DNA from: Candidatus Alloenteromonas pullistercoris
GTDB taxonomy: Bacteria; Bacillota_I; Bacilli_A; RFN20; CAG-826
NCBI GenBank assembly: GCA_017694295.1
Contig: JADINA010000039.1
Span: 1 to 64,000 of the forward strand
Reading direction: 5' to 3'
DNA: 64,000 bases
The notes under the pieces are model-generated. The model searched no databases and was not told the DNA's origin. It saw only the letters and a list, made by a program, of their open reading frames with translations. The translations under genes and the position numbers were made by a program. Of this stretch, positions 8,794 to 56,604 are shown in pieces (within the stretch, counting starts at the first letter, position 1; the number at the start of each line of letters is the position of its first letter).

Positions 8794-11007
8794 TTACCGG
8801 CGTCCGCCTTTTCCGCGGGGGCCGCCGTGGCCATGGTGGTCATGGTCGCCGCGGGGGCGCGAAGGCCTTTCGCTCCGCTCGACGTAGCCTTCCGGCTTCT
8901 CCTCGAACTCGCGGTGGCTCACCTTGACCTTGCCCTTCTCGTCGAGTCCGATGACGACGACCTTGAGGGTATCGCCGACCTTGACGGCCTTGGTGGCGTC
9001 CTCGACGTAATTCCAGCTTAGGCGCGAAACGTGGCAAAGCCCATCGGTGTCGCCGAAGAGGTTGACGAAGGCCCCGTATTCCTCGACCCGGGTCACCTTG
9101 CCCTCGAATATCTCGCCGACCTTGGCTTCCCTGACGATGTCGTCGATGATGGCCTTGGCCTTCTCGATCATCGCCTTGTCGCTATGGTAGATGGTGATGG
9201 TCCCATCCTCCTCGACGTCGATCTGGACGCCGCCGCAGTCGGCGATGATGGAGTTGATGACCTTCCCGCCTTGGCCGATGACGTCGCGGATCTTGTCGAC
9301 GTCGATCTTGAAGCTGACCATCTTGGGGGCGTATTTCGACACTTCCTTCCGCGGCTCGGGGATAACCTTGGCGATGGCCTCCCTGATCTCGGCCCGGGCT
9401 TTGTTGGCCTGGGCAAGGGCTTCGGAGAGGACTTCGCGGGTGACGCCGTGGATCTTGATGTCCATCTGGAGGGCGGTGAGGCCCTTGGCGGTGCCGGCGC
9501 ATTTGAAGTCCATGTCGCCGAAATGGTCCTCAAGCCCCTGGATGTCGGTGAGGATGGTGTAGGGGTGGGCTCCATCAAGCGGGCCCGAGGTGATGAGGCC
9601 CATGGCGATGCCGGAGACGATGCCCTTGATGGGGACGCCGGCAGCCATAAGCGACATGCAGTTGGCGCAGATGGAGGCTTGCGAGCTCGAGCCGTTGCTC
9701 TCGACGACGTCGGCGACGCAGCGGATGGTATAGGGGAATTCCTCTTCGCTAGGCAAAACGTAGCTTAAGGCCCTTTCGCCGAGCTTGCCATGGCCGATCT
9801 CCCGCCTTCCGGGGGCGCCCATCCTTCCGATCTCCCCGACCGAATAGGGCGGGAAGTTATAATGGTGCATGAAGCGGCGCTCGGTCTCGCCGGTCAGATC
9901 GTCGATGATCTGCTTATCCGATAGGGGGCCGAGGGTCGTGGTCCCGATGACCTGGGTTTGTCCGCGGGTGAACATGGCCGAGCCATGGGCCCTCGGAAGC
10001 AGGTCGACTTGGCAATCAAGCGGCCTGATCTCATCGACTTTCCGTCCATCGGGCCTGATCTTCTCCTCGGTGATGAGGCGGCGGACCTCGTCGGCCACCA
10101 TCTTCTCGAGGATGTCGTCGACCATGAGCATCGACATCTTGTGGTCGTGCTCATCCTCGTATTCGCGTGAATCGTAATCGTCCTTTATCTCTTTCTTCAA
10201 AGCGTCGATGGCGTCTTGCCTTTCGAGCTTGTCGAATATCGAGATGGCCTTGACCATCCTCTCCCCAATGCGGGAATGAATGTCCTCGACGATCTTCGCA
10301 TCGGGAGCGTAGAGATCGATGTGGCGCTTGGGCTTGCCGATCTCCTCGATGATTCTCTTCTGGAAGGCGCAAAGCTCCTTGATGGCCTCAAAGCCGAACA
10401 TGATGGCGTCGAGCATCTCCTCCTCGGGGACCTCAGCCGCCCCGGCCTCGACCATCATGATGGCGGACTCGGTGCCGGCAACCGCGAGGTTGATGTCGGA
10501 TTTGGCCATCTCCTCCTCGGTCGGATCGATGATGAGCTTGCCATCCACGCGGCCGACGTAAACCCCGGCCACCGGGCCGTCGAAGGGGATGTCGGAGGTG
10601 CATAGGGCCAAGGAGGCGCCGAGCATCCCGGTCATCTCCGGGGTGTTGTCGCGGTCGACGCTCATGACAGTGGCGACGATTTGGACCTCGTTGCGGAAGC
10701 CCTCGGCGAATAGGGGCCTTATCGGCCTATCGATGAGGCGGGCCGACAAGGTGGCGTGCTCGCTGGCGCGCCCTTCGCGGCGGAGGAAGCTGCCGGGGAT
10801 CTTGCCGGCGGCATATTGCTTTTCCTCGTAATTGACCGTCAGAGGGAAGAAATCCCCTTCCTTCGGCTCATCGGCGCAGCAGGCGGTCGCGAGGACGACC
10901 GTGTCGCCGAACCTAACCAAGACCGAGCCATCGGCCTGCTTGGCGATTTCGCCGGCTTCGACTTGCAGATGCCGTCCGGCGAATTCGGTTTCGAACACTT
11001 TCTTCAT
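8794..11007 (-). CDS. pnp: Polyribonucleotide nucleotidyltransferase (PNPase)
   Basis: This 737-residue protein degrades RNA 3' to 5' by phosphorolysis as a trimer in the degradosome. The order is complete: first RNase PH domain, helical linker, second RNase PH domain with MGAPGRREIGHG, a KH domain (IRDVIGQGGKVIN), and an S1 domain (GEIFEGKVTRVEEYGAFV). The tail after S1 is short and rich in Arg, Gly and His. The start is an ATG behind AAGGAAAC. A long upstream region on the same strand could form a hairpin (see the intergenic entry). In Bacillota pnp usually follows rpsO directly; here a plus-strand gene separates them. Confidence 0.97.
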   Translation of the reverse strand: MKKVFETEFAGRHLQVEAGEIAKQADGSVLVRFGDTVVLATACCADEPKEGDFFPLTVNYEEKQYAAGKIPGSFLRREGRASEHATLSARLIDRPIRPLFAEGFRNEVQIVATVMSVDRDNTPEMTGMLGASLALCTSDIPFDGPVAGVYVGRVDGKLIIDPTEEEMAKSDINLAVAGTESAIMMVEAGAAEVPEEEMLDAIMFGFEAIKELCAFQKRIIEEIGKPKRHIDLYAPDAKIVEDIHSRIGERMVKAISIFDKLERQDAIDALKKEIKDDYDSREYEDEHDHKMSMLMVDDILEKMVADEVRRLITEEKIRPDGRKVDEIRPLDCQVDLLPRAHGSAMFTRGQTQVIGTTTLGPLSDKQIIDDLTGETERRFMHHYNFPPYSVGEIGRMGAPGRREIGHGKLGERALSYVLPSEEEFPYTIRCVADVVESNGSSSQASICANCMSLMAAGVPIKGIVSGIAMGLITSGPLDGAHPYTILTDIQGLEDHFGDMDFKCAGTAKGLTALQMDIKIHGVTREVLSEALAQANKARAEIREAIAKVIPEPRKEVSKYAPKMVSFKIDVDKIRDVIGQGGKVINSIIADCGGVQIDVEEDGTITIYHSDKAMIEKAKAIIDDIVREAKVGEIFEGKVTRVEEYGAFVNLFGDTDGLCHVSRLSWNYVEDATKAVKVGDTLKVVVIGLDEKGKVKVSHREFEEKPEGYVERSERPSRPRGDHDHHGHGGPRGKGGRR

Positions 11008-11386
11008 TGTGTTTCCTTTTTCTCTCTTTCTGTTTCTTTCTTAAGCAAACGCGAATATGTTACCACCGCCCCCACTCCCCTTCCACAAGGAAAGAGAAAG
11101 GAACTTCCCGCAAGCGTGCCCACCAAGAGCTTGAAGGAGAACTGGCATACAAGGCGAACTATGGGCAAAGCCCAACCGTCGGCGGTTCCTCTTTCCTTAT
11201 CGCCTCGGCCCCGCCGAGGGCCTTCCCGCTCCGCATTCAGGCTGACCGGAGGCCACGGCTTGGGACGCCCTTTTCGTTTAGGGCTTCGGTTTATGGGGTC
11301 CGGCATAAGGAAAGAGTCCTGGACATCAAAAATACCAATGTTTTCTCCTAAAAGTGTTGTAAAGTAACACTAACTGGAGAAAATCA
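11008..11386. other. 379-base intergenic region: pnp leader with potential long hairpin, plus AbiEi control region
   Basis: I see no convincing gene here. A short reading frame on the minus strand has no start signal and an odd composition. Bases 11089-11104 can pair with 11185-11196, enclosing about 80 bases, to form a hairpin in the pnp leader. The last 45 bases hold the nested inverted repeat upstream of the AbiEi-like gene. Confidence 0.45.
11341..11383 (+). promoter_or_regulatory. Nested inverted repeat covering the ribosome binding site of the AbiEi-like gene
   Basis: TTTTCTCC (11341-11348) pairs with GGAGAAAA (11376-11383), and inside it AGTGTT (11353-11358) pairs with AACACT (11366-11371). 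The right outer arm contains the GGAG ribosome binding site. As DNA it could be an operator for the encoded protein; as RNA it could hide the site. AbiEi-type proteins are known to bind inverted repeats in their own promoters. Confidence 0.65.
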
Positions 11387-11974
11387 ATGGTAATCAGCAT
11401 CCAGCAACTGCTTGATAAGTACAAGGACTACGTCGATCCCAAGGGCAAGATCAGAAGAGACGTGGAATCCGGCAAGCTATTTCATATCGTCCGAGGCCTT
11501 TACGAGACGGATAGGAACGTCGATGGCTCCTATCTGGCCCAGTTCATATACGGCCCGTCCTATCTTTCCTTCGAATATGCCTTATCCAAATACGGCCTAA
11601 TACCCGAAGCCGTCTTTCGAACCTATACATGCGCGAGCTTCGGCAAAAGGCGGAGGAAGCATTACGCGAACGCGTTTGGCGATTACCTATATCGCGACGT
11701 CCCCAAGCGTGTCTACCCCTACGGGTTCAAGATCGTCGTCCAAGGCAACTACTGTTACCACATCGCCACGCCCGAAAAGGCCCTCTGCGACAAACTTTAC
11801 GCGGTTGAGCCGGTCGCCTCGATGAAGGCCTTCAAAGCCCTGCTTTTCGAAGACCTCCGGATCGACGAGGAGGAATTCGACAAGCTGGACAAGGTATTCA
11901 TCAGAAAGATCGCCCCGTTATACAAAAAGAGAAACCTCAACTGGCTAGCCAAGATGGTCGAAGAGGCATCCTAA
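11387..11974 (+). CDS. Orphan AbiEi-like protein (type IV toxin-antitoxin antitoxin family)
   Basis: A 195-residue protein matching the AbiEi antitoxin family. An N-terminal winged-helix-like part (about residues 1-45, ending in RGLYETD) is followed by the family signatures YGPSYLSFEYALSKYGLIPE and IATPEKALCDKLY. AbiEi proteins repress their own operon and neutralise the nucleotidyltransferase toxin AbiEii. No AbiEii gene follows; the next gene is rpsO on the other strand, with only a shared terminator between. It is therefore an orphan, perhaps a pure regulator or the remnant of a module. It sits as a lone plus-strand gene between pnp and rpsO. The ATG is preceded by a GGAG site inside an inverted repeat. 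Confidence 0.82.
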   Translation: MVISIQQLLDKYKDYVDPKGKIRRDVESGKLFHIVRGLYETDRNVDGSYLAQFIYGPSYLSFEYALSKYGLIPEAVFRTYTCASFGKRRRKHYANAFGDYLYRDVPKRVYPYGFKIVVQGNYCYHIATPEKALCDKLYAVEPVASMKAFKALLFEDLRIDEEEFDKLDKVFIRKIAPLYKKRNLNWLAKMVEEAS

Positions 11975-11991: not shown

Positions 11992-12016
11992 AAAAAACCC
12001 GCCGCAAGGGCGGGTG
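11992..12016 (-). terminator. Terminator of rpsO
   Basis: CCCGCC and GGGCGG arms close a short loop. On the minus strand a run of six T residues follows. Confidence 0.85.
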
Positions 12017-12030
12017 GAGGAAGCGTTATC

Positions 12031-12300
12031 TTACTTCCTGATTCCAAGCGAGGCGATGAGCTCGGCGTAGCGCTTCTCGTCGTTGCGGGCGAGATAATCG
12101 AGAAGGCTGCGGCGCTTGCCGACGAGGATGAGTAGGCTGCGGCGGCTCGCGGCGTCCCCGTGGTTGGCTTTCAGATGCTCGGTGAGGGCCTTGATGCGCG
12201 AGGTGAGCAAGGCGATCTGAACCTCGGCGGCGCCGGTGTCCTTCTCGTTCTTGCCGTACTTCTTGACGATGGCAAGGGTCTCTTCTTTGCTAAGGGCCAT
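12031..12300 (-). CDS. rpsO: 30S ribosomal protein S15
   Basis: An 89-residue protein of normal S15 length that binds 16S rRNA helices 20-22 early in 30S assembly. The signature TGAAEVQIALLTSRI is present, as is HGDAASRRSLLILVGKRR. The start at 12300 (MALSKEET) is set by length, homology and a GGAG site eight bases upstream; in-frame codons further upstream belong to the leader. The leader of about 90 bases could allow S15 autoregulation, but I did not identify a specific structure. Confidence 0.97.
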   Translation of the reverse strand: MALSKEETLAIVKKYGKNEKDTGAAEVQIALLTSRIKALTEHLKANHGDAASRRSLLILVGKRRSLLDYLARNDEKRYAELIASLGIRK

Positions 12301-47324: not shown

Positions 47325-47330
47325 ATAGCC

Positions 47331-47413
47331 GCGTGAAAAGCAAAGCCAGGGAAACCTGGCGGCGCAAAACTAAAGGGCCTACCCCGAATCGGAACGGCAG
47401 CCAGTTACCCCGG
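47331..47413 (+). ncRNA. Cyclic-di-GMP-I (GEMM) riboswitch
   Basis: The GEMM-I layout is visible. GCAAAG leads into a CCAGG/CCTGG stem capped by a GAAA tetraloop (47346-47359), then the conserved core with GCGCAAAACTAAAGGGCCT (47362-47380) containing the tetraloop receptor side. A second hairpin around CCGAATCGG and the closing GGCAGCCAG...TTACC strand follow. The core of 20 bases at 47361-47380 is identical to that of the second copy at 56554-56573. GEMM-I elements bind cyclic-di-GMP. About 155 bases, including a CGAAGC/GCTTCG hairpin, separate it from the TTG start of the first gene. Whether it turns expression on or off is not clear from the sequence. Confidence 0.88.
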
Positions 47414-56518: not shown

Positions 56519-56523
56519 AGACC

Positions 56524-56604
56524 TTGTCAAAGGCAAACTTAGGGCGACCTAGGGGCGCAAAACTAAAGGGCCTCACGCAGGCAGCCAGCTACCGCAAATG
56601 ACAA
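56524..56604 (+). ncRNA. Cyclic-di-GMP-I (GEMM) riboswitch abutting a start codon
   Basis: TTGTCA (56524-56529) pairs with TGACAA (56599-56604) as the closing stem. Inside are CTTAGG/CCTAGG with a GCGA tetraloop (56538-56553), the core GGCGCAAAACTAAAGGGCCT (56554-56573, identical to the other copy), a GCCT/AGGC hairpin with loop CACGC, and GCAGCCAGC-TACC. The ATG of the next gene is at 56606, one base after the closing stem, and no ribosome binding site lies outside the aptamer. Ligand binding would stabilise the stem next to the start codon, so direct control of translation is plausible. Confidence 0.9.

Follow-up and report, generated by a model that had tools for sequence, protein, structure and literature searches.

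The gene at 11387–11974 of the window (the whole 64,000-nucleotide stretch of Candidatus Alloenteromonas pullistercoris DNA that was analysed) is a solo AbiEi that stems from an abiE operon and probably represses itself. It belongs to two known kinds, the orphan antitoxins and the AbiEi family, and loss of the toxin with retention of AbiEi is recurrent. The nested inverted repeat in front of the gene is the operator of this family, and comparison of upstream sequences shows that it is ancestral to the family as a whole and not specific to the window gene.

The window abiEi gene and its surroundings

The following features were used in the analysis:
11337–11342, forward strand: AATGTT at the −35 position of the family (TTGATT in relatives), conserved TTG lost
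11341–11358, forward strand: left operator arm, outer TTTTCTCC at 11341–11348 and inner AGTGTT at 11353–11358
11360–11365, forward strand: TAAAGT at the −10 position of the family, weakened (4/6 matches to TATAAT, the box of most pairs), 27 nt before the ATG
11366–11383, forward strand: right operator arm, inner AACACT at 11366–11371 and outer GGAGAAAA at 11376–11383
11376–11379, forward strand: ribosome-binding site GGAG within the right outer arm, 7 nt upstream of the start codon (ATG, 11387)
11387–11974, forward strand: abiEi, the gene proper, 195 aa (PADLOC, AlphaFold/Foldseek, conserved columns)
11997–12015, reverse strand: stem of the intrinsic rpsO terminator, starting 23 bp past the stop codon of abiEi, towards which rpsO is transcribed

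The gene was identified as AbiEi by PADLOC (PDLC02230, E 9.5e-63) and by its AlphaFold model (pLDDT 95), for which the top Foldseek matches in the PDB were 6y8q (S. agalactiae AbiEi, E 2.5e-5) and 1zel (Rv2827c). The predicted fold consists of an N-terminal wHTH and a C-terminal domain, and TM scores against these two structures were 0.43–0.51 across both domains. Pfam gave no match for the protein, NCBIfam TAA_AbiEi scored only 18.6 bits, under its cut-off of 150, and a search of the PDB by sequence returned no relative. Membership in the AbiEi family (type IV TA, COG5340-like) is nevertheless indicated by the profile, the two-domain fold and the inverted repeats over the gene's own promoter. 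An earlier note had claimed an AbiEi-like gene at 11341–11974; PADLOC and the structural matches confirm the assignment, and that span comprises the repeat (11341–11383) and the gene itself. None of the 44 positions conserved among paired AbiEi deviates in the window protein, and GC3 of the gene (0.72) is near host composition (0.65–0.86 in host genes). No close relative was found in sequence collections, the best match having 61% identity.

Both neighbours, pnp (8794–11007) and rpsO (12031–12300), lie on the reverse strand. The statement that no AbiEii follows was borne out, as rpsO is found on the opposite strand 57 bp past the abiEi stop codon with its terminator in between. The stem of this terminator in fact leaves no room for a toxin gene. 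The gene is situated 11 kb inside a 107-kb contig and its orphan state is therefore not an artefact of an assembly edge. With an intact antitoxin gene and no AbiEii nucleotidyltransferase gene downstream, the locus is that of an orphan antitoxin and not a complete abiE system. No toxin remnant was found at the locus, and a profile of the cognate toxin had no match in the window's assembly (86.7% complete). In several congeners that lack AbiEi at this place the rpsO–pnp spacing is 107–160 bp and pnp is intact.

The stretch 11060–11340 was considered as a repeated element and rejected on account of a single partial copy: the 65 bp at 11236–11301, between pnp and abiEi, recur with 77% identity at G000:C12:47250–47314. 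Elsewhere in the window, two c-di-GMP-I riboswitch aptamers (Rfam RF01051) were observed on the forward strand at 47329–47412 and 56522–56596, scoring 63 and 52.9 bits.

The operator and its distribution

The eight-base outer and six-base inner pairs described in the earlier note, with GGAG in the outer arm, were found letter for letter. Taken together they form a dyad with 18-nt arms, of which 14/18 positions are paired, and a 7-nt gap. When the 75 nt upstream of the gene were shuffled 1000 times, an equally good dyad arose once, and 6 of the 853 75-nt tiles across the window reached its score. Folded as RNA, the repeat gave −17.4 kcal/mol (z −4.3), and no Rfam family was matched at the site. 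In the window copy, the promoter hexamers, assigned by register with relatives, reached at best 6/12 matches compared to a mean of 9.3 in pairs, a value as low being found in only one of 119 pairs.

Arms of the window type also precede AbiEi in most paired relatives, the common pattern among the window's neighbours in the tree being TTGATTTtCTCC..AAGTnTGaTATAATnnAACTnnnTGGAGnAAAT. The centre of the dyad typically lies 23–26 nt before the ATG in scoring pairs and 25 nt before it in the window. Dyad symmetry in orphans was no better than in pairs, with mean scores of 10.1 in 19 orphans and 9.6 in 119 pairs (p 0.37). Promoters were weaker in orphans than in pairs (p 0.001), a difference that is only suggestive as relatedness was ignored in the test. 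In S. agalactiae, AbiEi binds the abiE operator and represses by itself, with no detectable role for the toxin (Dy 2014, PMC3985639). As the toxin is not needed for repression, a kept operator is expected wherever AbiEi itself is kept.

Further copies of the repeat, through which regulation in trans might take place, had been proposed as a check; none was found. At up to 3 mismatches there was no second full operator in the window's genome and none in the reversed control, chance expectation being estimated well below one, and matches to a looser inner palindrome stayed at control level. The same held for four genomes of a clade of solo AbiEi located at phoH, where nothing exceeded control level and the only perfect matches to the clade's inner motif lay at its own promoter. 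The search of the genome for AbiEii-like genes that had also been suggested returned one, intact, on the same contig (G000 C32, 94047–94745). Directly upstream this toxin has an AbiEi of its own, which belongs to another subfamily and has the palindrome ACAACCAT/ATGGTTGT around the −10, so that an AbiEii elsewhere under the same operator, which would have spoken against the earlier note, was not encountered. The two genes (L001 1459–2929) make up a second, complete abiE pair of a different subfamily. Their AbiEi has no significant similarity to that of the window and a different best PADLOC model, and their AbiEii is unlike the cognate toxin kind.

Toxin loss and selection on solo copies

A survey of 279 genomes of the order yielded 76 AbiEi matches. 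An intact toxin adjoins 49 of them, another 11 have a toxin that is partial or broken (in some cases because the contig ends there), and the other 16 have no toxin beside them. Removal of contig-end and fragment cases left 12 of the 16 as real orphans. Most of 80 further genome loci were pairs and 7 were orphans, which brought the orphan loci to 19; L172, which is paired and represents the G091 locus again, was excluded from these numbers. Changes between pair and orphan occurred at least 14 times on the tree, with orphans mostly on single tips. A broken toxin lies next to an open AbiEi in G109, G169, G171, G061 and G190, a short toxin remnant is left in G131 and L053, and the solo AbiEi of G055 carries an in-frame stop and is beginning to break. 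The cognate-toxin profile matched in 70 of the 279 genomes, and the survey held no full-length toxin without a neighbouring AbiEi match, that of G224 being partial. Outside these genomes, the same AbiEi was not found in phages; plasmids held distant relatives only (about 30–35% identity among the matches listed), and 9 relatives were found on viral contigs, 7 of them in pairs and 2 truncated where the contig ends. At L140 (2501–5585) a GmrSD_N/DUF262 gene of 607 aa lies between AbiEi and AbiEii, making this an interrupted or three-gene abiE operon.

Four congeners (G007, G020, G024 and G030) each carry a C-terminally extended solo AbiEi downstream of phoH (L054 2258–2941, L055, L056 2483–3172 and L058 2203–2886). 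A lysine-rich linker is found in these proteins, and their C-terminal tail is conserved as AKDAWDxLAxxRNKY. Between the copies of G024 and G030, dS was 0.31 and dN 0.01 (dN/dS 0.03), and all 50 bases before the ATG, operator included, were unchanged, while the neighbouring blocks, as far as 250 bp upstream, retained 44–45 of 50 (88–90% identical). A solo AbiEi and its operator can thus be maintained. The sister of the window AbiEi in the tree (support 99/98), L135, is likewise solo and intact, with 60% identity, and the two may have lost their toxins independently. For the window copy, the 44 of 44 conserved columns, the host-like composition and the solo sister are indirect signs that would fit maintenance. 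That solo AbiEi with private operators persist as vertically inherited lineages (the clade at phoH with its additional C-terminal tail; the window gene and L135), and are autoregulated genes that stand alone, have their own function and are not debris, is a tentative and rather doubtful proposition. If true, that function could be for example immunity to AbiEii-bearing elements or phages.

Function of the solo gene and comparison with known systems

The earlier note read the kept operator as a sign of a new regulatory use. The operator is indeed kept; the new use found no positive support, given that the genome holds no second operator copy and that its sole AbiEii comes with a different AbiEi and operator. 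A co-opted regulator of other genes in trans, or of the divergent pnp, is therefore improbable, even if purifying selection in the sister solo clade, retention of the operator while the promoter weakens, and the suggested action of M. tuberculosis Rv1044 outside its own operon (PMC7319586) are in its favour; the start of pnp is also 334 bp from the operator, and the congeners without AbiEi there keep that gene. A role of the window AbiEi as antitoxin to the AbiEii on its own contig is barely credible, as this toxin is of another kind and has a dissimilar AbiEi directly upstream under another palindrome. The −10 box of pairs is situated between the arms, mostly 24–28 nt ahead of the ATG. Transcripts should consequently start downstream of the left arm, which would stay untranscribed, so that a hairpin over the ribosome-binding site should not form; this points to a DNA site, and in S. 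agalactiae AbiEi has been proven to bind DNA arranged in the same way (PMC3985639). An mRNA hairpin hiding the ribosome-binding site is thus very unlikely, despite the strong predicted fold over GGAG, with some room left for an RNA role in the window since its −35 and −10 are weaker than those of relatives and transcription might start further upstream.

The account we favour, with confidence just short of even, is a maintained guard-type function as a stand-alone autoregulated antitoxin. A type IV abiE operon would have lost its AbiEii gene cleanly while AbiEi stayed. By analogy with S. agalactiae, for which autorepression (PMC3985639) and an antitoxic C-terminal domain have been published, AbiEi monomers would attach to double-stranded DNA at both halves of the nested repeat, cover the −35, −10, start site and ribosome-binding site, and shut off their own promoter, which would keep the amount of protein low and steady. 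Its C-terminal domain would still neutralise AbiEii, and the gene may be kept as a cheap, self-limiting guard against AbiEii arriving on mobile elements. Exposure is plausible, as intact AbiEii of the cognate kind is present in about a third of congeners. The weakened promoter hexamers count against the guard reading and would suit decay. A passive relic, in which the toxin was lost recently and AbiEi and operator are so far undecayed with no present function, is a real possibility, if clearly below even; the staged decay of toxins beside open AbiEi, the remnant in G131, the stop in G055 and the concentration of orphans on single tips all fit it. The undecayed window protein, the absence of a toxin remnant, the near-host GC3 and the intact solo sister do not. 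Minor options share the remaining probability. The window AbiEi may be largely an ordinary leftover that could still act as a guard. Across the family, intact abiE pairs, loci with a broken toxin and solo antitoxins make up a natural series with one operator throughout, and the family's strongly selected solo clade is a place to test directly the old question whether orphan antitoxins act.

Orphan antitoxins are known from a K. pneumoniae survey (PMC7192599) and, as AbiEi, from Mycoplasma mycoides (PMC8562856). In the accessible text of these reports they are toxin-less antitoxin genes like that of the window, proposed to be anti-addiction modules or remnants; retention of the operator and selection on solo genes, analysed here, are not addressed there. 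The type IV AbiEi of S. agalactiae (PMC3985639; 6y8q) shares the wHTH and C-terminal domain of the window protein, and its operator is like that of the window family in having short-centred inverted repeats over the −35, −10 and start site, where the S. agalactiae antitoxin alone represses. The two differ in that the S. agalactiae operator is built 23-3-23 and that of the window from 18-nt arms around a 7-nt centre, in 18% identity between the proteins in the fold alignment, and in the missing downstream AbiEii of the window. Rv2827c of M. tuberculosis (PMC7319586; 1zel) has the same fold as the window AbiEi and autorepresses via inverted repeats; it differs in having four repeats where the window has two, a larger C-terminal domain and its toxin, Rv2826c, still present.
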